Below are positions 1,664 through 32,836 of a stretch of DNA of 45,496 nucleotides, piece after piece. Source of the stretch: Membranihabitans marinus (lineage in GTDB: Bacteria; Bacteroidota; Bacteroidia; Chitinophagales; Saprospiraceae); assembly GCF_021729155.1 (NCBI RefSeq), contig NZ_JAJQYA010000021.1:41882-87377 (forward strand), given 5' to 3'. Both the position numbers and the translations under genes were made by a program. The notes beneath the pieces are model-generated. The model was not told the origin of the DNA. It saw only the letters and a list, made by a program, of their open reading frames with translations, and did no database searches. Each line of letters opens with the position of its first letter. Position 1 is the first letter of the stretch.

Positions 1664-2389
1664 TCACCATAGAGATTTTAAGACATCGTAAGATTTAATG
1701 CGCTCGAAGGCGTGACTGTGAAACCGAATATAATCGATTACGTGATCAGTTAATTGCTGACGCTGAACCCTCGACAATTTAACGGATTCTAAATTTTCCG
1801 CTTCCACCCTTATTAAATCATAAAACAACGGTGTCAAACTCTGATCGATATACATAGGATGACCAGGAGAATGAGGTAAAAAAGAACCGGATTTTAAATC
1901 AAAATACGACTTTCCATTGTCCTCTAAGTGATGGGGTCCAAAACCCAACTGCACCGACAGCTGAATCAAAAAATGCAATAATACATTGGCCGGTTTTTCT
2001 ACCTCATCTAAGAGATAAATATAGGATTCGATAAAATCAAACATGGAGGGATTGACATCGTAGACCGGCAAAACCTTTTTCAAGACCTCACACATGCAGA
2101 GTGCCGTATTTCCTCTCAATATATCATAGGGTGTGCGCTGCAAATGACTGGCCAAAGTGACTTCCTTTATCCGCCACAACTTATGTGGATCACTTTCATA
2201 GTAAACCATATCCAGCAAATAACCGGGGGTAAACAAAACCGGTGACAATTTACTCCCCTTTTTTCGAACCCCAGACACAATACAGGCCACCATACCGTGT
2301 TGCTGAGAAAACACATCGATGATCATGCTACTCTCCCGATAGTTCATTCTACGCAGAACGATACATTGGGCTTGTGTCAGCTTTGCCAC
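1664..2389 (-). CDS. recO: DNA repair protein RecO
   Basis: RecO loads RecA onto SSB-coated single-stranded DNA together with RecR and RecF, in gap repair. The N-terminus (QCIVLRRMNYRESSMIIDVFSQQHG) is the characteristic OB-fold opening of RecO, and the helical C-terminal part continues to residue 241, the usual length. The start is GTG at 2389, one base after the ileS stop; the ATG at 2391 is in a different frame, and the next in-frame Met (residue 15) would cut the conserved OB fold. The gene is expected to be translated from the ileS transcript. No zinc-finger cysteines typical of some RecO proteins are evident. Confidence 0.93.
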   Translation of the reverse strand: MAKLTQAQCIVLRRMNYRESSMIIDVFSQQHGMVACIVSGVRKKGSKLSPVLFTPGYLLDMVYYESDPHKLWRIKEVTLASHLQRTPYDILRGNTALCMCEVLKKVLPVYDVNPSMFDFIESYIYLLDEVEKPANVLLHFLIQLSVQLGFGPHHLEDNGKSYFDLKSGSFLPHSPGHPMYIDQSLTPLFYDLIRVEAENLESVKLSRVQRQQLTDHVIDYIRFHSHAFERIKSYDVLKSLW

Positions 2390-2390
2390 A

Positions 2391-5300
2391 TCAATTTTTA
2401 CTCAACAAAATATGGATAAAGGTGCCCTCAACCAATTCAACTTCCTGACCTTCAACACCTCCATCTAGAGTAATATCATCGGCCAACACTTCGTTTTTAA
2501 TATATTGCCCAAATTTTTCCACAGCAGGCATTACCAATTCGTGATTGCTGATGCGGATATCGATGCGATCGGTCACATTAAAATCTTCCTGTTTCCTTAT
2601 ATTTTGAATCCGATTCACCAACTCCCTCGCTATACCTTCTGATCGCAACTCATCATCCATGTGAATATCTAAAGCCACTGTGATTTCGCCGTCTTTGGCC
2701 ACCAACCAACCTTCGATATCTTCGGAAGTAATCACAAAATCCTCAAGGGTCAACACCATTTCTTCCTCTCCCAAATTCAAGATATACTGTCCAGACTGCT
2801 CTATTGACACAATATCGGCATCGGTCAAACTACCAATCACTTGAGCTGCCTGTTTCATGTTTTTGCCCAGTCGTCGACCCAGGGTTTTGAAATTTGGTTT
2901 AATATTCTTTTTAACTATACCGGCAGTATCGGTCACATATTCTATGGACTTAACATTGACTTCCGCCAATATTAAATCCTCTACCTGAGACACCAAATGC
3001 TCAAAATTGGGATCCAATATCGGAAGCATTATCTTATTAAGCGGTTGTCTCACTCTAATTTGCTCTCTTTTTCGAAGCGAAAGCACCAAGCTACTGATGC
3101 GTTTGGCATAATCCATTCTCACTTCTAAATCTTTGTCTATCCATGCAGAATCAGAGTCTGGAATTAAACTGAGGTGTACCGACAATGCATCCTCTTTCTG
3201 ACTAATATCATTTAGATTTTTAAACAACCAATCCGCAAAGAATGGCGCAATAGGAGCCATTAACTTGGATATGGTTTCCAAACAAGTATATAGGGTTTGG
3301 TAAGCGGCTATTTTATCTTCTGAATAACTCCCCTTCCAAAAACGTCGTCGACAAAGTCGCACATACCAATTGGATAACTGGTCGTCTACAAAGTACATTA
3401 TTTTTCGCGCTGCATTGGTCGGTTCATAATCCGCATAACTGCGATCTACTTCAGCGACCAAAGTGTGTAGACAAGACAGTATCCAACGATCAATCTCTGG
3501 TCGATTCTCTTTGGCTATATCGGTTTCTTCGTATTTAAACCCATCAATATTGGCATATAGTGCAAAGAATGAATAGGTATTATACAGGGTTCCGAAAAAT
3601 TTACGACGTATTTCATCGATGCCATCCAAGTCAAATTTGAGATTATCCCAAGGCTGGGCATTGGACATCATATACCATCGAGTGGCATCAGCACCTTTGT
3701 CTTTCAAAGTGATAAATGGATCCACTGCATTACCCAATCGCTTGGACATTTTTTGGCCATTCTTATCCAAAACCAGACCGGTAGACAATACATTTTTAAA
3801 TGCTATCTTATCGTGAACCATGGAGGCTATAGCGTGCAATGTAAAAAACCAACCTCTGGTTTGATCCACACCTTCAGAGATAAAATCTGCTGGAAAGTTG
3901 GACTTAAATTTTTCTTGATTTTCGAAGGGATAATGCCATTGTGCATAGGGCATGGATCCACTGTCAAACCACACATCGATAAGGTCGGTTTCGCGATTCA
4001 TGACTTCACCTTCATCAGTCACCAAAACGATATTGTCAATGAATGGACGATGCAAGTCGTGAGGCAGGCTTTGCTCTAGCCCCAAAACTCGATTGGCCTT
4101 TGTGATTTCAACTTCTAGTTCCTCCAAACTGCCAATACATTTTTCGATGGTCGCATCGGCATTTCGCCATATCGGCAATGGAATACCCCAGTATCGAGAT
4201 CGGGATAGATTCCAGTCTTGAAGATTCTCCAACCAATTGCCGAATCGCCCCTCTCCTGTGTGTTTAGGCTTCCAGTTAATGGTCTTGTTCAATTCTACCA
4301 TTCGATCTTTGCGAGCCGTTGACCGCACAAACCATGAATCTAATGGATAATATAAAATCGGCTTATCTGTTCGCCAGCAGTGTGGATAACTGTGGACATA
4401 TTTCTGAACATTAAAAGCCTTATTTTCTTTTTTCAATTTAATGGCGATATCGACATCTACCGACACATAATCGGCCTCATCAACATAGTTTTTCACATAG
4501 CGATTGGCAAATTCACCCATTTCTGGCAAAAATTTACCTTGTTTATCGACCAAAGTCAATGAACCAACCCCGTATTTTTGGGCTACTCGTCTATCGTCGG
4601 CTCCAAAAGAGGGCGCTATATGTACTATCCCAGTACCGTCCTCTGTGGTTACGAAATCATCGACTAAGACTAAAAACGACAAACCATCCTCCACCTGCAC
4701 ATAGGGCAGTAATTGTTCGTACTGAATGCCTTCAAAATCTTTACCGACAAATCTCTCTTCTATAGACCAAGGAATGATTTTATCTCCCTGTGAATAGGCT
4801 TCAAAATCACCATCTTGTCCATCTGCTTTAAACCATTTAGACAATAGCTTTTCGGCCAATACCACTCTGATTTCTATCCCTGTATAGGGGTTAAATGTTC
4901 TAACCCTCACATATTCAATCTTTGGCCCCATTGCCAAGGCAGTATTGGATGGCAAAGTCCAAGGAGTTGTCGTCCAAGCCAAAAAATACAGATCTTGATC
5001 GGCATCCATATCGGCGAATATCGGATTGGATTTCTCATCCTTGACCACTTTAAATTGAGCTACAGCAGTGGTATCGGTCACGTCTTTGTAACATCCCGGC
5101 ATATTGAGCTCATGGGAAGAAAGACCAGTTCCCGCAGCTGGACTATAGGGCTGAATAGTATAGCCTTTGTAGATTAAATCTTTATCGTACAATTGTCTCA
5201 GCAAATGCCAAACCGACTCAATGTATTCATTCTTAAAGGTAATATATGGATCATCGAGATCAACCCAATACCCCATTTTACGGGTTAAGTCGTCCCACAT

Positions 5301-5684
5301 ATCCTTGTACTTCATGACGGTTTCCCGACATTTGGCATTATAATCTTCAATACTGATTTTCACACCAATATCGTCTTTGGTAATTCCGAGTTCTTTTTCA
5401 ACGCTCAATTCCACAGGAAGACCGTGGGTATCCCAACCTCCTTTTCGCTCTACTCGTTTGCCCTTCATGGACTGGTACCGGCAAAATAAATCTTTGATGG
5501 TTCGAGCCATAACGTGGTGAATCCCGGGCTGACCATTGGCAGATGGAGGTCCTTCGTAGAAGACAAAACTATTATCCTCATCCCTCTCTTCAATACTTCT
5601 TTGGAAAATATTTTCATTTGTCCAAAATTCCTGAATTTCCCGATCTATTTCTGGCAGATTGAGCCCATCATACGATTTATACAT
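2391..5684 (-). CDS. ileS: Isoleucyl-tRNA synthetase, type 2 (eukaryote-like), with GIHH signature
   Basis: Charges tRNA-Ile with isoleucine. The length (1097 residues) and a C-terminus without the bacterial zinc cysteines fit the type 2 (eukaryal-like) class. The class I catalytic core is complete: GPPSANGQPGIHH at residues 45-57, the editing (CP1) domain in the middle with TTTPWTLPSNTALA, and KMSKR at 645-649. The HIGH motif reads GIHH (residues 54-57, bases 5514-5525), with the first and third residues swapped relative to HXGH. Published work on type 2 IleRS links this swap to extreme mupirocin resistance; for this protein it is inference. Starts at ATG, upstream of recO in an apparent two-gene operon. 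Confidence 0.97.
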   Translation of the reverse strand: MYKSYDGLNLPEIDREIQEFWTNENIFQRSIEERDEDNSFVFYEGPPSANGQPGIHHVMARTIKDLFCRYQSMKGKRVERKGGWDTHGLPVELSVEKELGITKDDIGVKISIEDYNAKCRETVMKYKDMWDDLTRKMGYWVDLDDPYITFKNEYIESVWHLLRQLYDKDLIYKGYTIQPYSPAAGTGLSSHELNMPGCYKDVTDTTAVAQFKVVKDEKSNPIFADMDADQDLYFLAWTTTPWTLPSNTALAMGPKIEYVRVRTFNPYTGIEIRVVLAEKLLSKWFKADGQDGDFEAYSQGDKIIPWSIEERFVGKDFEGIQYEQLLPYVQVEDGLSFLVLVDDFVTTEDGTGIVHIAPSFGADDRRVAQKYGVGSLTLVDKQGKFLPEMGEFANRYVKNYVDEADYVSVDVDIAIKLKKENKAFNVQKYVHSYPHCWRTDKPILYYPLDSWFVRSTARKDRMVELNKTINWKPKHTGEGRFGNWLENLQDWNLSRSRYWGIPLPIWRNADATIEKCIGSLEELEVEITKANRVLGLEQSLPHDLHRPFIDNIVLVTDEGEVMNRETDLIDVWFDSGSMPYAQWHYPFENQEKFKSNFPADFISEGVDQTRGWFFTLHAIASMVHDKIAFKNVLSTGLVLDKNGQKMSKRLGNAVDPFITLKDKGADATRWYMMSNAQPWDNLKFDLDGIDEIRRKFFGTLYNTYSFFALYANIDGFKYEETDIAKENRPEIDRWILSCLHTLVAEVDRSYADYEPTNAARKIMYFVDDQLSNWYVRLCRRRFWKGSYSEDKIAAYQTLYTCLETISKLMAPIAPFFADWLFKNLNDISQKEDALSVHLSLIPDSDSAWIDKDLEVRMDYAKRISSLVLSLRKREQIRVRQPLNKIMLPILDPNFEHLVSQVEDLILAEVNVKSIEYVTDTAGIVKKNIKPNFKTLGRRLGKNMKQAAQVIGSLTDADIVSIEQSGQYILNLGEEEMVLTLEDFVITSEDIEGWLVAKDGEITVALDIHMDDELRSEGIARELVNRIQNIRKQEDFNVTDRIDIRISNHELVMPAVEKFGQYIKNEVLADDITLDGGVEGQEVELVEGTFIHILLSKN

Positions 5685-6190: not shown

Positions 6191-9100
6191 ATGAATAGAT
6201 TTTACTTTCATTACCCTGTAATGTCTTGCGTTATTTTACTATTTTTTATAATAATACAAGTAAATATTAACGCCTATCCCCTACCCTCAGAATATCACCA
6301 TCAACTATTAGATTCTATCCCGATTTCGGGGACTATAGTAGATGAAGACAATATTGGCTTACCCGGAGTAACCATTACTGTCGAAGGTTTATCTGGAGGT
6401 GTAATCTCAGACATAGATGGGAAATATTCCATCCCCGCACCCAGTGATGGCATCTTAAAGTTTTCCTTCATTGGAATGGAAACACAAGTCGTTCCTGTAA
6501 ATGCCCAGCGAAGAATAGATATTGTTATGTTAAGCAAACTAGAAGAGTTGGAAGGAGTAACTGTAGTGGCTTTTGGAAAACAGAAGAAAGAAAGTGTTCT
6601 GGCTTCCGTAACGACCATTAATCCCAGCGAACTCAGGGTTCCATCGAGTAATCTGACTACGGCCATGGCTGGAAGAATGTCTGGCATCATATCCTATCAA
6701 CGATCAGGAGAACCGGGACAAGACAATGCCGAATTTTTTATTCGAGGTGTCACTACATTTGGATACAATCGAAGTCCCCTTATCCTTATTGATGGAATCG
6801 AACTTTCCACCGATGATCTGTCCAGAATGCACCCAGACGACATCGCCAGTTTTTCTATAATGAAGGACGCCACAGCTACTTCACTCTATGGGGCGCGAGG
6901 TGCCAATGGAGTGATTTTGGTCACTACAAAATCTGGGGTAGAAGGTATAGCAAGAATCAATGTGCGATTTGAATCATCGATGTCAGAACCAACACAGCGT
7001 ATCGATTTTGCCGATCCACTAACCTACATGGCCCTACACAATGAAGCCATAAGGACACGAGATCCACTCGGCATCCTACCCTACTCTCAACTAAAGACAG
7101 AACAAACTGCTTTGGGTGCCAATCCATTTGTATATCCTGCCAACGATTGGTTTAAAGAAACCATTAAAGATAGAACCTTCAACAACCGTATCAACTTCAA
7201 TCTAAGCGGAGGTGGAAAAGTTGCTCGATACTATATATCTGCATCTGCAACCAAAGACAATGGTGCATTAAAAGTGGATCAAAGAAACAATTTTAATTCC
7301 AATATCGACTTACAAAAATATATCGTTCGATCCAATGTCGACATCAATTTAACCGAATCCACAGTAGCCACCATACGAATCCACGGCACCTTTGACGACT
7401 ACCAAGGTCCGATCAATGGAGGTACTCAAGTTTATAGAAATGTAGCCAGATCCAATCCTGTCCTCTTCCCAGCTTATTACGAACCAGATGAAGCCAATCA
7501 ATTTCGTCAACATATCCTATATGGAAATTCTGGAACGGGTCGATTTATGAATCCCTATGCGGACTTGACCCGAGGATATAAGGAATACAGCAATTCTTTG
7601 ATGTTGGCTCAGTTTCAAATAGAACAAGACTTAGGAAGTTTAGTCGAAGGTCTCAATTTACGAGGGATGGCCAACACCTATCGCGAAGCATTTTTTGATA
7701 TCACTCGGACTGCGGTTCCTTTTTATTATGAAATCAACAAATACAATAGCAGAACCGACAGCTATTCTCTCAAGCCACTGAACTCAGACCAAGGACGAGA
7801 ATATTTGGATTATGTACCGGGGAACAAAACCTTATTGTCCAACTTTTACGGAGAAATGGCCATTAATTACAATCGCGTATTTAACGATAAACACGGGGTT
7901 AGTGGATTATTGGTGGGGATTGCCCGTCAATCCTTATTTGCTCCAGACTTTGACTCTGATCTACAAACCAGCTTACCCAAGAGAAACGTTGGGGTATCTG
8001 GTAGGTTCACCTATTCCTACGACAATAAGTATTTTAGTGAATTCAATTTTGGATACAATGGAACCGAGCGCTTCTCTGAAAATGAACGCTTTGGATTTTT
8101 CCCTTCCTACGGTGTGGGCTGGTTAGTATCCAATGAAGATTTCTGGGAGCCACTATCACCCATTGTCAACAAATTGAAACTGAGAGCGACCTTTGGCTTA
8201 GTAGGCAACGATGCCATTGGAAGAGAAGAAGATCGATTTTTCTACCTTTCCAATGTCAACCTCAACAATGAAAGCCGAGGTTATCGATGGGGAACCGATG
8301 GTTTGATCTATGAACCAGGCGTATCTATCAGTCGCTATGCCAATGATTTAATCACCTGGGAGACTGCTGAGAAATTGAACCTCGGATTTGAACTCGGCTT
8401 ATTTAACTCCATTACCATAATTGGGGATATATTCTCAGAAAAAAGAGACAATATATTAATGGATCGAATTAACCTATCTACCTTGGGATTACAAGCCCAG
8501 ACTAGAGCCAATGTAGGGGCAGCATCGAGTAGTGGCATCGATTTGTCAATGGATATTGAACATTTTTTTAACAATGATTACTGGGTTATTGCCAGAACGA
8601 ATTTCACTTATGCTCGCGGTGTATTCGATCGCTTCGAAGAACCCAACTATCAAGCTACTCCGTGGTTATCTAGACTAGGGGCTCCGATTACTCAGCAATG
8701 GGGCTATATCGCAGAACGACTCTTTGTAGACGACGAAGAAGTAGCTCAATCTCCCGATCAGTTATTTGGCAGTGTGGTAAGAGGGGGTGATATCAAATAC
8801 AGAGACATCAACGGAGACGATAAAATCACTGGGTTGGATCAAGTCCCTATTGGCTATCCTACCACTCCGGAAATCATATATGGCTTTGGGTTTTCAGCGG
8901 GATACAAAAACGTAGATTTATCGATGTTCTTCCAGGGATCGGCCAATTCATCTTTCTGGATTGATCCCACCTTTATTTCTCCCTTCATCGACGCCACATA
9001 CTCTGACGAAACCAAAAATTGGATTGGATACAATGCTCTTATTCAAGACATTGCCGATAGTTATTGGTCGGAATCCAACCGCGATGTATACGCCTTTTGG

Positions 9101-21940: not shown

Positions 21941-24007
21941 CTAGTCTTTATCGACCGTAAATCGATAATTTAATTTAAAAAAATAAGATCTACCCCAGTC
22001 CACCAATTGCTGCGAGGACGTCGAAGAATGAGCGCTACCGCTGGTTCCAGAAACGGAAATTGATTGAATGTCGAGTAAATTTTTCACCCCTAGGGATAAA
22101 AAGAGAGAGGTATTAAATAAACTTTTACTCACAGATAGATTGACCATATTCATCCCTCCTATTCGGCCTTCTTCCACGACATTATTTTCACCTAAATAAT
22201 ACCGTTGTTGTTGACTCGTCCATTTTTGAAAAATATAAAAATCTGATTCAATCCCCGGAATCCGATAACTTAGATTGTTTTGCCACTCAAATACATTGGT
22301 AAATCGATTGGCGTCCGAGATATCACTATATATATTGTATAAGCGAGTCCAACTACCGGCCGACTGAAATTGAAATCGATCAGAGAAAGCAATTTCCATG
22401 GAAGAATTAAGACCATGGCTCTCAAATTCGGATATATTTTGATAGGTATATTGATTGACATCAAACTCAGCCAGTATAATTTTGTTTTCAATGATATTAT
22501 TGAAAATCGAGGTAGTCCACATGGTTTTTCGATTCCACAATCTGATCTGGCCGGTAATATCGAGAGACATATTTTTAGAATGCTCTGCACCCAATTCCGC
22601 ATTGCCCACGATGTAGTGATTGATATCTATAAATTCAAATAACATCTCCTTAAGGTTGGGGGCTCTAAATCCATGGGCATAACTCACCCTTGCATTCCAT
22701 TGAGGATTTATCCGCCACAGTAAATTAGCAGCCGGAATCAATGGATGATCATAGGTAGAATTGTAACCGTATCGCAGATGACCTTGAACATCTAAAGAAG
22801 GGAGTAACTTGTATTTACTACTGATCCAACCCCCATAATTAATTTGCTTATTGGCCCTCGTTGAATCAGCCTTAATTCGATTGCCTTGAGCCGTCTCGTA
22901 TAGATATTCCAGTCCCAATTGACCAGACCAACGATCAGAAAAATCAATGGATGCAAAGTTTCTAGATAATAAACTGTGATATGTGGTGGTGTCCAAACTC
23001 TCTGCCAGTGTCGTCTCCAAACTTTCATCGAAATCCATTCGAATGGTTTCCAAGTTTCGATTATACGAATTGTATCCATTATTAGAAGTAAAGAACAATT
23101 TTGGCCCCAAATATCCCGAAAAATAGACACTATGGTCAATTCGCTCGGTATAATAGTAATCGTCAAATGCATAGGGTTTATACACAGGTCTTCGCACTTC
23201 GCCCATATTTTTCACCTCTTCATTTAAATAGCGAAATTTATAACGAATGGATGAAGAATCCGTGATTTGATATTTTAGAGTACCATCACCTGAATATTGA
23301 TATTTAGGATTCCATGGATATTTTTTAGTCCTAGTAATAATGCCACCATTGTCGATGACTTCATAGATACGAAGGCTATCACTAGAAGCTAACTGTGAAT
23401 GATATCGACGTCCATTGATCTCGCCATACCATTTACCCCATTGTTTACTTATACCCAAACCATTGTCCAATACACCTACTGATTCTATGACATTGCGCGA
23501 TTCAATATTAAGTCCCTTTATGGTACTTTGATCCGATATAATATTGATTACTCCCCCAGATGCATTGCTACCGTATTGTGCCGACATTGCACCTTGCACT
23601 ATTTCTATTCTTTTGACTCGAGTCATCGGAATTTGGGACAGGTCGATATTGCCATCCAATCTTCCAATTACGGGAATGCCATCTTGAAGTATTAATATAT
23701 TTTCACCGCCGATCCCCTGCATTTTCAAGCCATTGCCCAATACCAAATCGGTACTGACCTGCATATTCAGTTGAGTCAATAGCACTTCCGAAAGATTAGA
23801 TACGCCCATTTTCTGAATGGTTTGTCCATCAATCACACTTACTTTGTGCATAGCTTGAGAATAATGGGTAGGCTGATACTGTGCCGTCACCACAAATTCG
23901 TCCATTTTTAGATTCCATGCAATGGAATCAAAATGCAAACTATCCTGACCGATTACTCTCGATATTGTACAGAGTAATACCAATACCAATGTCGCTCGAC
24001 CATACAT
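21941..24007 (-). CDS. hmuR: TonB-dependent outer membrane heme receptor (HmuR-like)
   Basis: A 688-residue TonB-dependent receptor: signal peptide ending near VIGQ, a TonB-box-like EFVVTAQ, a plug domain (about 50-160, with LILQDGIPVIGRLDGNIDL, VKRIEIVQGAMSAQYGSNAS and GVINIIS) and a 22-strand-type barrel that ends FKLNYRFTV. YAHGFRAPNLKEMLFEF is the conserved FRAP-NPNL-like region of heme and vitamin receptors. It lacks the CarboxypepD-like extension of SusC proteins. As the last gene of the heme operon, one base after hmuS, its substrate is most likely heme or a heme-protein complex. No single residue proves heme specificity. Confidence 0.88.
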   Translation of the reverse strand: MYGRATLVLVLLCTISRVIGQDSLHFDSIAWNLKMDEFVVTAQYQPTHYSQAMHKVSVIDGQTIQKMGVSNLSEVLLTQLNMQVSTDLVLGNGLKMQGIGGENILILQDGIPVIGRLDGNIDLSQIPMTRVKRIEIVQGAMSAQYGSNASGGVINIISDQSTIKGLNIESRNVIESVGVLDNGLGISKQWGKWYGEINGRRYHSQLASSDSLRIYEVIDNGGIITRTKKYPWNPKYQYSGDGTLKYQITDSSSIRYKFRYLNEEVKNMGEVRRPVYKPYAFDDYYYTERIDHSVYFSGYLGPKLFFTSNNGYNSYNRNLETIRMDFDESLETTLAESLDTTTYHSLLSRNFASIDFSDRWSGQLGLEYLYETAQGNRIKADSTRANKQINYGGWISSKYKLLPSLDVQGHLRYGYNSTYDHPLIPAANLLWRINPQWNARVSYAHGFRAPNLKEMLFEFIDINHYIVGNAELGAEHSKNMSLDITGQIRLWNRKTMWTTSIFNNIIENKIILAEFDVNQYTYQNISEFESHGLNSSMEIAFSDRFQFQSAGSWTRLYNIYSDISDANRFTNVFEWQNNLSYRIPGIESDFYIFQKWTSQQQRYYLGENNVVEEGRIGGMNMVNLSVSKSLFNTSLFLSLGVKNLLDIQSISVSGTSGSAHSSTSSQQLVDWGRSYFFKLNYRFTVDKD

Positions 24008-24008
24008 A

Positions 24009-25079
24009 TTATTGATTTACCAAGGTTGAAACTATAGTGTCGTCGACGATGGATCTCCATTCTTCCAATTCCGGAACACCTGGTTTACGAGCTCCAAAAA
24101 AGTAGGTAATTAAATTTCCTTCTTTATCGAACAACTCTAAACTAGTCACGATACCGTCTTTGGTCGGTTTTCGAACAACCCAAGTTTCACAGATATCTGA
24201 TGATTTCAAATGTAAATTGAAATCGGGATCCAAGACATTAAACCAATCGCCAAAGGTTTTTAGGTTGCGAATAGGTCCGGTATGAATCTGGACACAACCT
24301 TTGCTGTGCACAAAGCACATAATCGGTACTTGACGCTCTGCAGCTAACGCACATATTTTCTCCACAGATTGATTAGAGACCTTTTGCGTCATTCCTTCTG
24401 GAGCTATGGACAATGCCGTTAATCGATCGAGATTAAATGATTTCAACATTCCAAAAAAGCTGTGGGTATCATCTAGATTTATCCATGCTTCACGAAAACC
24501 AGCTACATCGACTTGAGAAATATCAATCTCTTCCTTTTCACTGGGCTTGGTCTGACTTTTCTGAATCTCTATCGGTTCTTGTTCATCTGCTTTGTACTGT
24601 TCCACAAGAGAATGATAAGCCGTTATATCAGATTGAACTGTTGAAAATATTTTGTGGACAGCTTCCCCTTCTTCATTAAAAAATTGAAAGGAATATAAGT
24701 CATCGCCCTTGGGACGTACCATGACGACGGCCAATCCATACTTCCATGCATTCATAAAATAACGCATATCGATATCGGGATTCACAGCTACTCCCATATT
24801 GGCCTCACCTTTGTAAAAGGTTACATTTTCATAAATTCCTTTGCGTTCATGGACTACTGAAGAATTCCGGGTCAGAGCCATGATTTTGCCCATTTGGTAC
24901 ATATTTTCCAAAAGTGATTTAAAATCATCTCGAAGAAGGACGACTTTGTCGCCAATATTCAAGGTTAACAATTCAGCTTCTGAAATTCCCAATTTCTCAG
25001 CCAAATCTCTGTTCCGCAATTTGGGATTTGATTTTTTTAAATCTTCTAATTGACTTTTTAAATTTTTAATTCTATTCAT
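24009..25079 (-). CDS. hmuS: Cytoplasmic hemin-binding/degrading protein (HemS/ChuS/HmuS family)
   Basis: This protein receives heme after import and stores or degrades it. It is about 356 residues with the duplicated HemS/ChuX-like repeat: first half with VVLLRDDFKSLLENMYQMGK and VHERKGIYENV, second half with VCALAAERQVPIMCFVHSKGCVQIHTGP-type strands (LKTFGDWFNVLDPDFNLHLK). The N-terminal helix contains NRDLAEKLGISEAELL, the family opening. I start it at ATG 25079: it overlaps the hmuV stop in ATGA, and the longer opening upstream would add nine residues inside hmuV. It is cytoplasmic, with no signal peptide. Confidence 0.93.
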   Translation of the reverse strand: MNRIKNLKSQLEDLKKSNPKLRNRDLAEKLGISEAELLTLNIGDKVVLLRDDFKSLLENMYQMGKIMALTRNSSVVHERKGIYENVTFYKGEANMGVAVNPDIDMRYFMNAWKYGLAVVMVRPKGDDLYSFQFFNEEGEAVHKIFSTVQSDITAYHSLVEQYKADEQEPIEIQKSQTKPSEKEEIDISQVDVAGFREAWINLDDTHSFFGMLKSFNLDRLTALSIAPEGMTQKVSNQSVEKICALAAERQVPIMCFVHSKGCVQIHTGPIRNLKTFGDWFNVLDPDFNLHLKSSDICETWVVRKPTKDGIVTSLELFDKEGNLITYFFGARKPGVPELEEWRSIVDDTIVSTLVNQ

Positions 25080-25861
25080 AATGGTAAAGTTGTGATATGA
25101 GGACATCCCAATATAGGGTGTGGTTGAACAATGGAATTAATACCCAATACCGACTGTAGAATATCGGGTTGAAACATTTGATCAGGAGATCCGCTATACA
25201 CGAGTTCCCCAGACTTTAACAACAGGACTTGATCTGCAAATTGAGCAGCTAGATTGAGATCGTGAAATATGGCAAAAACCCCATAGTTTTCACGATGGCA
25301 TTTTTCCTTAACCAACTGCAAGATCTTATAGGAATGATGAATATCTATAGAAGCGGTTGGCTCATCTAGAAATAAATATTTAATATGATGATCACTGTCT
25401 GACAACTGAACAAAGCATTTGGCCAAAAGCACTCGTTTTTGTTCTCCACCAGAAAGGGTATCGAACATCCTGTCTTTGTATCGCAACATGCCGACTTCAT
25501 TCAAGGCTTGGAGGATTTTATTTTTCTTGTCCCCAGGAGATACTTTTTCATTTATAGCCATCATGCCCATTTCCACCAAATCGTATACCTTCATCGGAAA
25601 TCCCGGAGAGAACTGCTGGGACAATACCGCTCTTCGACGAGCCAAGATCTTAATATCCATTTGATGGAGGGGCAGTTTATCCCACAATATCCTGCCATCG
25701 AATCTTTTATTCCGTCCGGACAAGGTATTGAGCAGGGTGGATTTACCCGCGCCATTAACCCCGATTACCACGGTAAATCTGCCGGGAAGGATATCAAAAG
25801 AGATATCCCTTATGATTTCATGACCGGCTATTGCTACATTTATTTTTTGGACTGTTATCAT
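25076..25861 (-). CDS. hmuV: Heme ABC transporter ATP-binding protein HmuV
   Basis: The ATPase of the heme importer, 261 residues. Walker A is GVNGAGKST (34-42), then LSQQFSPGFPMKVYDLVEMG, the signature LSGGEQKRVLLAKC and Walker B YLFLDEPTASIDIH; IFHDLNLAAQFADQVLLL holds the switch histidine and is typical of FecE/HmuV-type importers. I start at ATG 25861, which overlaps the hmuU stop as ATGA; the longer form from 25900 would add 13 residues inside the permease gene. Overlaps at both ends show translational coupling with hmuU and hmuS. Confidence 0.94.
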   Translation of the reverse strand: MITVQKINVAIAGHEIIRDISFDILPGRFTVVIGVNGAGKSTLLNTLSGRNKRFDGRILWDKLPLHQMDIKILARRRAVLSQQFSPGFPMKVYDLVEMGMMAINEKVSPGDKKNKILQALNEVGMLRYKDRMFDTLSGGEQKRVLLAKCFVQLSDSDHHIKYLFLDEPTASIDIHHSYKILQLVKEKCHRENYGVFAIFHDLNLAAQFADQVLLLKSGELVYSGSPDQMFQPDILQSVLGINSIVQPHPILGCPHITTLPL

Positions 25862-26886
25862 AATAACCACTGTTCTTTTTGTGACCGCATCAATAACCAT
25901 AAAAAGAATGGCCCCCCTACCAAAGCCGACAATATTCCTATAGGCAGTTCTGCAGGAGCAATAATGGTACGCGCTAAATCATCGGTTAAAATCATAAATA
26001 TGGCACCTGTTAGGGCTGACGATTTCATTAGAAATCGATAATCTGCTCCTTTAATTAAGCGTATAAAATGTGGAATTACCAAACCTACAAAACCGATAAT
26101 TCCACTCATGGCAATACATACTCCGACTATGAGAGAGGATATGAGAATAACTCCTGTCTTGACTTTTTCCACAGCAACGCCCAGATATTCTGCTTCGTGC
26201 TCGCCCAGCATTATAGCGTTGAGAGAATGGCAGTAGGTATTTAATTTATATATTCCGATTAGGATAATAGGACCGGCAATAAAAACTTGAGTCCAAGTGG
26301 CTCCGCCAAAGCTCCCCAAACTCCAGAAAGTAATATCTCGCAATTGTTGTTCATCAGATAAATAAATAAAAATTCCGGAAATAGCACTAGTAAGGGCTGT
26401 GATAGCAATACCGGCCAATAACATCGTCATAATATGGGTTCTACCCGCTTTTTTGGATAAAAAATAGACGAGATAGATGGATACCATACTCCCCGCAAAG
26501 GCAAAAAGAGCCACCATGGATTGCTGAAAAAAAGCCGTCATTGAGGGCAGAATTACCCCCATTAAAACTATTGACATAACCGCAAACAACATGGCTCCAC
26601 TGGTCACGCCTATAAGAGAGGGATCGGCAAGGGGATTTCTAAACATTCCTTGAATAGCTGCTCCAGTAATTGCCAATCCGGCCCCAGTAAGACCAGCTAA
26701 TACTATCCTGGGCAGACGAATATCCATTAATATAAAGTATTGGCTCGACGCTAGGAATTCTGTGGAAGATTGTCCCATAAGTGACTTTAGGTCTACCTGA
26801 AATGCTCCCATATTGAGGGAGATTAAAACGGTAACCATTAGCAGTCCCCAGAGAGAGATAAATATTTGTCGATGGCTGAACTTCAT
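25858..26886 (-). CDS. hmuU: Heme ABC transporter permease HmuU (FecCD family)
   Basis: The inner-membrane channel of the heme importer: about 342 residues with nine to ten hydrophobic helices. FecCD hallmarks are RLPRIVLAGLTGAGLAITGA, GMFRNPLADPSLIGVTSGA and GIIGFVGLVIPHFIRL. I prefer ATG 26886 (MKFSHRQIF). A TTG at 26904 in the same frame overlaps the hmuT stop (TTGA) and would add six residues; coupling by that overlap is possible but TTG starts are uncommon in this window. It pairs with HmuV and HmuT. Confidence 0.94.
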   Translation of the reverse strand: MKFSHRQIFISLWGLLMVTVLISLNMGAFQVDLKSLMGQSSTEFLASSQYFILMDIRLPRIVLAGLTGAGLAITGAAIQGMFRNPLADPSLIGVTSGAMLFAVMSIVLMGVILPSMTAFFQQSMVALFAFAGSMVSIYLVYFLSKKAGRTHIMTMLLAGIAITALTSAISGIFIYLSDEQQLRDITFWSLGSFGGATWTQVFIAGPIILIGIYKLNTYCHSLNAIMLGEHEAEYLGVAVEKVKTGVILISSLIVGVCIAMSGIIGFVGLVIPHFIRLIKGADYRFLMKSSALTGAIFMILTDDLARTIIAPAELPIGILSALVGGPFFLWLLMRSQKEQWLL

Positions 26887-26900
26887 TTTAAATAGTGGTT

Positions 26901-27770
26901 TCAATATAATTTTTGAGACAATTCCAATGCTGCTTTACCCACCCGAGGACCGAAGGAAGTTAAATAATGTCCGTCCATGGCAATAATCTTCTTGTTCTTA
27001 AAGGCAGCAGTCTGAGACATACCTGGGATTTGAGACAGGCCCTCGACATTGTCAAAACTGGCCAATCCCGATTCAAACATCAGGACAACATCGGGATTGG
27101 ATTCCAGTAATGATTCCGCAGTTAGCGCTCTAAAACCTTGAAACTCTTCAACGGCATTTATTCCTCCAGCACATTTGATTATAGCAGCGGCAGAAGTTTC
27201 CTTACCGGCAACCATCAGATTACCTGCCCCTCTAGCATAGATAAACAATACTTTTGCTGGTTTTTCTATTTGATTTTTGAAATCATTTAGGCTGACGCTA
27301 TCTTGATCTAATTGCTGTTTTAATTCTTTTATTTTTTCATGGTCAATAGCTATATGTTCTGATAATTGTTCTGCTACATTATAGGCATTGTGCAATGTAA
27401 ACTGAGTTTGTACCGGCAGTATTTCCACTCCAGAATTGGCCAATTGTTCAAATACTGGATTTTGTGCCATCTGCTGAGCGTCGACCAATATCAGGTCTGG
27501 ACTTAAAGACATTATTCCCTCTGCATTGATTTGACTAATATGACCCAACTGAGGCAAACTTTTCACATCATCGGGATATGTACTGGTGACATCAACTCCG
27601 ACAATCTGATTTCCCAAATCCAAATCGTAGAGCAATTCTGTAACGAATCCACTAAGAGATATTATCCTCTTTTCTTGTACCGAAGTCAGCTGATTTTGTG
27701 GATCAGATGAATTTTGGCAAAAAGTTAGTAGCATTACAATGCCGGCTAGCGCTAGAATTTTAACCTTCAT
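26901..27770 (-). CDS. hmuT: Heme-binding lipoprotein of the ABC importer (HmuT-like)
   Basis: The periplasmic substrate-binding protein, 289 residues, anchored as a lipoprotein (LLTFC, Cys18). It is a class III (BtuF/TroA-like) fold: RIISLSGFVTELLYDLDLGNQ is the standard first lobe, followed by LPQLGHISQINAEGIMSLSPDLILV, and the second lobe contains VAGKETSAAAIIKCAGGINAV and LLESNPDVVLMF. MSQTAAFKNKKIIAMDGHYL precedes the C-terminal helix. The family ligand can be heme, cobalamin or siderophore; the neighbours HmuS and the HmuY-like protein argue for heme. Starts at ATG, ten bases after the HmuY-like gene. Confidence 0.92.
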   Translation of the reverse strand: MKVKILALAGIVMLLTFCQNSSDPQNQLTSVQEKRIISLSGFVTELLYDLDLGNQIVGVDVTSTYPDDVKSLPQLGHISQINAEGIMSLSPDLILVDAQQMAQNPVFEQLANSGVEILPVQTQFTLHNAYNVAEQLSEHIAIDHEKIKELKQQLDQDSVSLNDFKNQIEKPAKVLFIYARGAGNLMVAGKETSAAAIIKCAGGINAVEEFQGFRALTAESLLESNPDVVLMFESGLASFDNVEGLSQIPGMSQTAAFKNKKIIAMDGHYLTSFGPRVGKAALELSQKLY

Positions 27771-27780
27771 AATATTTTAT

Positions 27781-29055
27781 TTATTGAATGATAAGTTTTT
27801 TCGAGAATGCGGATCCATCCATCGATAAGACTAAATGATATAACCCGGGTTGGAAATTACTGGGAAGGACATAGGGATTGTCACCTACTTGTAATGATAA
27901 GGACTGGTGGAATAATCTTTGTCCAAGCACATTGTACAAACTAACCTCAGCCTCTTTTACAGTTTTAGTACTGGATATTATCCCATTTAAATCCCGACCT
28001 TGTAATATTGGATTGGGGTAGAGTTTAAATTCGTTGATATAAGATGGTCTCTCTAGATAAGAAGCTAATACTGTTTCATAGGTTTTCTGAAAAGTAGATA
28101 TCCCTGTCGACGATCCCTCAAAGTCAATAAACTGCAAGCGGTAAATACTGTCATTAGCCGTTTTAATAAAATACACTTGATCATCGGCTACTTCATACTG
28201 GAAGGTAGATAGACTAAAGGACTTCCATTCGTGACCGATGGTTTCAATATTAGACGACCACTGATCTTCGTAATCACTATATGGAACAGTTGCTGGATCA
28301 ACGCCGGTTACCTTAATGGCTTCCAACTCTCCGCGCAACAATACCCCAGTTACATTGTAGTCTAAAATTCCACCTTGACCATCGTCGAGAGGAGTATTAT
28401 ATCTGGTAAACTTTAAATCCCAATCTTCTGGTTCCAAGTCGAGTACTTGTTGATTTTGAAGAGAATAATAAGCAAATTGTTTGTTTTCAAAATCGGATTT
28501 ATCGATACTGTCTACTACGATATTTTGGCTTTCCAAATCTCCATATCTAAAGTAGTATTTACTTCCTCTCAGAAGATCAATCATACATTTACGATATTCA
28601 CCATTTCTTAGTTTTACAATAAATACTCGACTTCCAATGACATCATGACTAGCTGGATTATAGCTTCCCCATCCAAAATCAAAAACATCTGCGGTATCGG
28701 TTAAACTATTGAAGGCACCTTCTGACCAGGATGAACCACCATTGTACAGTTGATCTAAGATATGACTGGTATCCAATACTGCATCAAAATCATTTACAGA
28801 AGAACTGTAGAGAGCCACTGGAGGTAGGGCATCAGTAGCTGATGAAGCAGCTTCGTTGATAGCCACGGCCAATCCTCGACTACTGACTTGGAAAGCAATA
28901 TCCCATTGTTGATAATCGACACTGGTAGATTCGCCAGTTGATAAGCTGTAATAAACACTGGATCGGTAGCCATCACCTTGACTCACTTGGTCAATTTGGC
29001 CATAAGATAGTAGGGAAAAAAACATTAAAATGATAAGGGGTGTAATTATTTTCAT
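27781..29055 (-). CDS. Secreted tandem HmuY-like heme-binding protein with T9SS sorting domain
   Basis: The first gene of the heme operon. A 424-residue protein with a Sec signal peptide (cleaved near SYG-Q20) and no lipobox. Two repeats of the HmuY pattern are visible: YYSLSTGE...WDIAF (35-55), then VFIVKLRNGEYRKCMIDL, and again YYSLQNQQ...WDLKF (196-216), then VYFIKTANDSIYRLQFIDF. The last ~82 residues (343-424, beginning FKLYPNPI, with VSLYNVLGQRLF and ending KKLIIQ) are a type A T9SS C-terminal domain. Classical HmuY is a single-domain lipoprotein, so the duplication and the sorting domain are unusual. The expected role is extracellular heme capture; axial heme ligands cannot be assigned. 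Confidence 0.85.
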   Translation of the reverse strand: MKIITPLIILMFFSLLSYGQIDQVSQGDGYRSSVYYSLSTGESTSVDYQQWDIAFQVSSRGLAVAINEAASSATDALPPVALYSSSVNDFDAVLDTSHILDQLYNGGSSWSEGAFNSLTDTADVFDFGWGSYNPASHDVIGSRVFIVKLRNGEYRKCMIDLLRGSKYYFRYGDLESQNIVVDSIDKSDFENKQFAYYSLQNQQVLDLEPEDWDLKFTRYNTPLDDGQGGILDYNVTGVLLRGELEAIKVTGVDPATVPYSDYEDQWSSNIETIGHEWKSFSLSTFQYEVADDQVYFIKTANDSIYRLQFIDFEGSSTGISTFQKTYETVLASYLERPSYINEFKLYPNPILQGRDLNGIISSTKTVKEAEVSLYNVLGQRLFHQSLSLQVGDNPYVLPSNFQPGLYHLVLSMDGSAFSKKLIIQ

Positions 29056-31921: not shown

Positions 31922-32836
31922 ATGAAAGCAATATCAAAAAGCCTAACTTTGTCTGATTTTCAGAAAAAATTCCCCGACGATGAAAGTTGTTTGAAATACT
32001 TATCAAACAAAAAGTGGAAAAATGGATATCAGTGCCATCGATGTAAGCACGAAAAATATTGTAATACTGTAAAGAATTACCATCGTCGATGTACTAAGTG
32101 TGGATATATTGAATCACCAACTGCCAACACTTTATTCCACAAAGTGAAATTTAGTTTACTAAAAGCCTTTACCATTGTCTACTTTGTATCGACCAATAAA
32201 CGAGGGATTTCATCTACGGAACTCAGTCGAAAACTGGGTTTAAGACAAAAAACTTGTTGGCTTTTTAAACAAAAGACCATGCAAGCTATGGGGAGTAGAA
32301 AGATTTATTCCATAACCACCGATGTAGAAATTTTGCCATTGGAACTGGGAATCAACCATGTTATAGAAAATGGAGAAAAGGTGGTAAAGAAAAAACTAGC
32401 TGTTCTTGCTCATGAAAAAAAAGGCAGTGGTAGAGGCAACACATATGGTCACAGAATAAAAAACCTGAGTTCCAAAGAATTGAGCGTAATTTTTCTAAAT
32501 CATATTGACAAAACAGCAACTATAAAAACGACGGGATGGTCTGGCTTTGCCCCATTACAAAATGTATATGGAAAAATGAAACCTTTCAAACCCAATAAAG
32601 GGAAACGTCCCCTAGTGATGTCTTATCGTATCGGTTGTGGGCTATTGCAGTGGCTCAGGGGAATTCACGGACATGCCGAACATTTGCAGTATTATATAGA
32701 CGAATACTTCTTTAGGCTTAATAGATGTGATATGGAAGATGGCATTTTCCTCCACCTTATAGAACGGATGATAAAACATGAAGCGAGAACTTACAAAGAC
32801 ATTGTGACCTATAAGCCTAAAGCGCCTTTAGTCTGA
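31922..32836 (+). CDS. IS1595/ISXO2-like transposase with altered catalytic residues
   Basis: A 304-residue protein of the IS1595 (ISXO2-like) transposase family, full length. It has the N-terminal zinc ribbon (Cys38, Cys41, Cys57, Cys60), the linker region TNKRGISSTELSRKLGLRQKT, and the C-terminal WLRGIHGHAEHLQYYIDEYFFRLNR. The expected catalytic signatures are degraded: VDE-type D134 is followed by Val instead of Glu, the second Asp (KTDxWxGY) is Thr204 in KTTGWSGF, and the LHxxIMNFK segment reads SYRIGCGLLQ (His to Tyr235, Asn to Gly240, Lys to Leu242). It is therefore probably inactive or repurposed. Flanking inverted repeats and target duplications are not recognised. Confidence 0.85.
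   Translation: MKAISKSLTLSDFQKKFPDDESCLKYLSNKKWKNGYQCHRCKHEKYCNTVKNYHRRCTKCGYIESPTANTLFHKVKFSLLKAFTIVYFVSTNKRGISSTELSRKLGLRQKTCWLFKQKTMQAMGSRKIYSITTDVEILPLELGINHVIENGEKVVKKKLAVLAHEKKGSGRGNTYGHRIKNLSSKELSVIFLNHIDKTATIKTTGWSGFAPLQNVYGKMKPFKPNKGKRPLVMSYRIGCGLLQWLRGIHGHAEHLQYYIDEYFFRLNRCDMEDGIFLHLIERMIKHEARTYKDIVTYKPKAPLV

Follow-up and report, generated by a model that had tools for sequence, protein, structure and literature searches.

The isoleucyl-tRNA synthetase (IleRS) encoded in the window, by which we mean the whole stretch of 45,496 nucleotides of Membranihabitans DNA that was analysed, is a type 2 enzyme in which the class I signature HXGH is naturally replaced by GXHH. Very probably it is the sole housekeeping IleRS of its organism, one that would charge tRNA-Ile and would need millimolar mupirocin for inhibition, with a swap that is old in the phylum. 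Four points are direct observations: the motif itself, the assignment to type 2, the single gene copy, and GXHH in every relative read.

The gene, ileS, occupies positions 2391..5684 on the minus strand and encodes 1097 amino acids. It was assigned by its match to TIGR00392, the ileS equivalog model (986.7 bits against a cut-off of 621.4), and by its similarity to the P. megaterium type 2 enzyme (PmIleRS2). The protein is full length, has no internal stop, and contains the class I catalytic domain tRNA-synt_1, the anticodon-binding domain Anticodon_1 and DUF5915. Its second class I signature is intact and aligns as KMSKR (residues 645-649, positions 3738..3752 on the minus strand; for this and other residues placed by alignment, coordinates were counted from the ORF start at 5684). 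The first signature lies at residues 54-57 (5514..5525, minus strand), where the plus strand reads GTGGTGAATCCC and the minus strand GGG ATT CAC CAC, that is, Gly-Ile-His-His. The initial annotation had reported this GIHH in place of HXGH, between GPPSANGQP and MARTIKD, and direct reading and alignment to PmIleRS2 agree with it: GPPSANGQP stands immediately before the motif and VMARTIKD immediately after. Two P. megaterium IleRS2 chains, 8c8v and 8c8u, have HVGH opposite GIHH in the phmmer alignments, and a third, 8c8w, has GVHH; this third chain, judging from its alignment and from PMC10485003, appears to be the published GVHH mutant. GIHH is also the sole [GA]-x-H-H of the protein. A whole-protein pattern search found no H-x-G-H elsewhere in the 1097 residues, and the swapped GIHH is therefore the real signature rather than a bystander to a catalytic HXGH at another site.

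The protein had also been described as having the type 2 length and as devoid of the bacterial C-terminal zinc cysteines, and alignment with both types of IleRS placed it nearer type 2. Among solved chains, phmmer gave 824-836 bits for PmIleRS2 (the best-scoring chain being 8c8w, at 835.6 bits) and 721 bits for the T. thermophilus enzyme, as against 242-330 bits for type 1 chains (S. aureus IleRS1, 1ffy, 329.7 bits). The window IleRS carries HYPFE at residues 584-588 (3921..3935, minus strand), which PMC4861432 names as a signature of the eukaryote-like IleRS type. At the columns occupied by Tyr-59, NKIL and SSL in type 1 enzymes it has Ser-48 (5541..5543, minus strand; the place of E. coli Tyr-59), ARTI and TLH; according to PMC4861432, the Tyr-59 place in the eukaryote-like type is filled by Phe or Thr. 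The last Cys of the protein lies no later than residue 801, and a C-terminal CxxC...CxxC pattern was absent from 200 of 200 aligned rows, at least three of which are too short to show it, whereas the E. coli control was positive. The IleRS1 enzymes of E. coli and S. aureus have the reaction and the class I catalytic domain in common with the window IleRS, but that of E. coli is only 27.7% identical to it and has a HIGH motif and the C-terminal Cys4. The protein is neither of the acquired mupirocin-resistance enzymes MupA and MupB: the models for these two reflect the type 2 likeness (773 and 768.7 bits), but both scores are far below the cut-offs of 1900.

The swap itself is already known, and by its sequence the window IleRS is a member of the G/AXHH IleRS2 class described by Brkic et al. 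2023 (PMC10485003), who tied that class to millimolar mupirocin Ki values and who counted, among 379 IleRS, 86 G/AXHH IleRS2 and 77 HXGH IleRS2. The members from Deinococcus radiodurans (ALHH) and Streptomyces griseus (the same type of non-canonical motif) are, like the window enzyme, type 2 proteins in which motif residues one and three have changed places; the window enzyme differs from them in its origin in the Bacteroidota, in the Ser at the Tyr-59 place and in KMSKR. P. megaterium IleRS2 and T. thermophilus IleRS resemble it over nearly the whole length but have HVGH (PMC10485003, Table 1) where it has GIHH. The link between GXHH and extreme mupirocin resistance on which the initial annotation drew is indeed reported in PMC10485003, for other enzymes. 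There, the wild-type ALHH enzyme of D. radiodurans has a Ki of 6600 uM (6.6 mM; Table 1), and reversion to HVGH lowers it to 8.1 uM, an 823-fold drop; conversion of two type 2 enzymes to GVHH raises the Ki from 0.20 to 35 uM and from 1.08 to 460 uM. The same swap abolishes activity in type 1 enzymes (PMC10485003), and the Ki of E. coli IleRS1 is nanomolar (PMC4861432). The structural account given in PMC10485003 is that the motif-bearing tip is displaced in type 2 enzymes, so that a third-position His is tolerated, and that this His clashes with mupirocin.

For the activity, structural accommodation and resistance of the window IleRS we extrapolate from these other enzymes. Given the type 2 displacement of the helix alpha-1 tip that bears the motif, the His at motif position 3 would fit without pushing the ATP adenine out of place, and the enzyme is predicted to charge tRNA-Ile normally. 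The same His would be expected to clash with mupirocin, so that millimolar mupirocin should be needed to inhibit the enzyme, which would make it hyper-resistant. Because it has Ser-48 rather than Phe or Thr, together with KMSKR, the published Ki numbers are not exactly transferable to it. Ser-48, KMSKR and the kept glycine of EG (residue 605; EG is present in 195 of 200 rows) differ from reports on characterised resistant enzymes; PMC4861432 reports that the S. griseus enzyme, which is highly resistant, has lost the EG glycine.

We then asked how widely the swapped motif is distributed. In a scan of named genomes the best 80 of 149 confirmed relatives were kept, and GIHH was present in 80 of 80 by alignment and in 79 of 80 by regular expression, the one missed locus (L047) being GIHH by alignment. 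The nearest named ileS relatives are those of Membranihabitans maritimus (79% identity) and M. marinus (74%), of the Saprospiraceae. The same motif thus recurs in independent named genomes, and GIHH is not a sequencing accident. The phylum sample comprised 395 genomes with 55 family codes, and all 395 had a query match, though valS is enough to give one. Letters were read in the window genome and 146 others, which together represent all 55 family codes (248 genomes were left unread); the choice of the 146 was not random: it aimed at family coverage and beyond that followed rank or convenience. GXHH was found in every genome read, three of which (G176, G280 and G212) contributed only a fragment at the end of a contig. 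Two rows, L016 and L099, coincide in their cores and might represent a single genome sampled twice. Counting the window with 199 loci, the first 200 rows comprised 189 GIHH, 7 GVHH, 3 GLHH and 1 GMHH, with HIGH in the E. coli control. A second set of 30 loci, in which three genomes were read for a second time, gave 20 GIHH and 10 GVHH.

A search of the 395-genome sample, in which scoring was limited to the top two first-look candidates of each genome, revealed no type 1 IleRS among the matches listed. An E. coli IleRS1 query hit 277 of the 395 genomes at E up to 1e-60, once each, with a best score of 330.3 bits, again among the matches listed, and the ten best places were GIHH type 2 frames that score 879-1024 bits to the window IleRS. 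Against the PDB, the same query gave 652-898 bits for type 1 chains and 321-354 bits for bacterial type 2 chains. The swap looks fixed across the phylum sample, and it is most likely old in the phylum. Since GXHH is present in all phylum relatives read, the trait is probably old and inherited rather than acquired; if the swap is old, resistance would be intrinsic and passed on by vertical descent. What our analysis adds to the published class is this distribution, with the swap in all relatives read and the trait probably both intrinsic and old.

It could instead be proposed that this lineage gained the swap recently as an adaptation for antibiotic resistance, under selection and perhaps by transfer. 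PMC10485003 and PMC4861432 do argue that mupirocin producers have exerted selection on type 2 enzymes, in other bacteria. We nevertheless consider a recent adaptation improbable here: every row read in the phylum sample, in 55 of 55 family codes, is GXHH, the genome has no second ileS, and the titles of the 16 nearest loci in named genomes, at 62-79% identity, are all Membranihabitans, Portibacter or Saprospiraceae, as vertical descent predicts.

Still less probable is that the swapped IleRS is a non-working paralogue beside a normal synthetase. Some bacteria do carry both IleRS types, and a type 2 enzyme can also be the sole ileS (PMC10485003). The genome was searched as assembled (5,396,799 bases in 78 contigs, listed as 100% complete), and a single place scored over the ileS cut-off, in keeping with the earlier observation that this was the only ileS in view. 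The next-best place (C24) was rejected as a second ileS because it is valS (TIGR00422, 952.5 bits), and the remaining places were rejected as weaker class I synthetase frames. The absence of internal stops, the full length and the intact KMSK of the window IleRS also speak against a paralogue that does not work. As for a misreading, whether by sequencing error, by misalignment or through a true HXGH elsewhere, it is scarcely credible, given GIHH in independent genomes and no second HXGH in the protein.

The initial annotation had regarded recO as a housekeeping context for ileS, and recO does lie directly downstream (1664..2389, minus strand; TIGR00613, 80.2 bits against a cut-off of 48.7). 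The adjacency is real, but the neighbourhood is not conserved: of the 68 named-genome loci whose downstream sequence runs to 900 bases or more, recO was found next to ileS in two, both Membranihabitans, at phmmer E up to 1e-4, a threshold that a very diverged recO may escape. In five other named-genome loci recO is 3.6 kb or further from ileS. With the pairing confined to two Membranihabitans loci, we rejected a conserved ileS-recO operon, and the housekeeping argument is founded on single-copy ileS in place of the recO context.

Upstream of ileS, no T-box or other RNA control element was recognised: Rfam gave nothing anywhere in the window at gathering scores, nor between 5600 and 7000 at E up to 1. 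A divergent SusC/SusD-like pair, named by reading the translations, begins at 6191. ARAGORN called a tRNA-Cys at 6783-6865 (minus strand), within and antisense to the SusC-like ORF; this is probably a false call, since Rfam had no match there at E up to 1. Elsewhere in the window, again by reading translations, a run of genes at 21941-29055 (minus strand) resembles a haem-uptake operon (TonB-dependent receptor, HmuS-like protein, ABC ATPase, permease, binding protein and HmuY-like protein), and an ORF at 31922-32836 (plus strand) resembles an ISXO2/IS1595-type transposase.

Returning to the active site, the residue at position 48, which is Tyr in E. coli, is Ser in 137 of the 200 aligned rows and Thr in 63. 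According to the kinship column, the Thr rows come from outside the window's class, and the Ser rows are those from inside it plus all 80 named-genome loci; the 30 loci of the second set, which likewise lie outside the class, all have Thr. A FastTree tree of 198 rows, rooted on E. coli, gathers the 136 Ser rows into a single group and leaves the Thr rows paraphyletic; we place no weight on the support value of the Ser node, which was given as 0.0 after rerooting. KMSKR accompanies Ser in 125 rows and Thr in 1, and 11 Ser rows have KMSKS. Ser-48 and KMSKR thus occur mostly together in the window's class, and Thr occurs with mostly KMSKS in the rest of the sample. Because GXHH is present in both the Ser and the Thr groups, the most economical sequence of events puts the swap before the Thr-to-Ser change. 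The class-wide change to Ser, at a position associated with pre-transfer editing, and KMSKR may then be later adjustments of the active site.

We compared this picture with the literature on mupirocin. No word beginning with Bacteroid appears in the main texts of PMC10485003 and PMC4861432, although the tree data and supplements of PMC10485003 may well include such sequences. Among the papers searched, a single one pairs GXHH with isoleucyl-tRNA synthetase. We found no direct mupirocin MIC data for Bacteroidota, a measure that permeability confounds in Gram-negative bacteria, in the open-licence literature (titles and abstract openings), and no kinetic or inhibition data for any Bacteroidota IleRS in the literature surveyed. 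PMC13085705 reports that mupirocin in the medium inhibits non-bifidobacterial strains, and its model associates mupirocin with more Bacteroidaceae diversity and also with more Enterobacteriaceae; because the latter, with type 1 enzymes, are also predicted to rise, that study does not discriminate. In the resistance table for an Ornithobacterium genome, PMC10835994 has isoleucyl-tRNA synthetase as a mupirocin entry.

Taken further, our results lead us to favour, with some reserve, the view that GXHH is ancestral and fixed in all Bacteroidota, which would have no type 1 enzyme, and that an ancient rearrangement of the active site has, as a side effect and not through selection for defence, left the whole phylum with intrinsic hyper-resistance to mupirocin, with the Thr-to-Ser change and KMSKR perhaps following later. 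This suggests that the published resistance mechanism would be the rule in a whole phylum. If so, insensitivity to mupirocin at the level of the enzyme would be predictable from the phylum, and counts of resistance genes should not treat the ileS of these bacteria as acquired.
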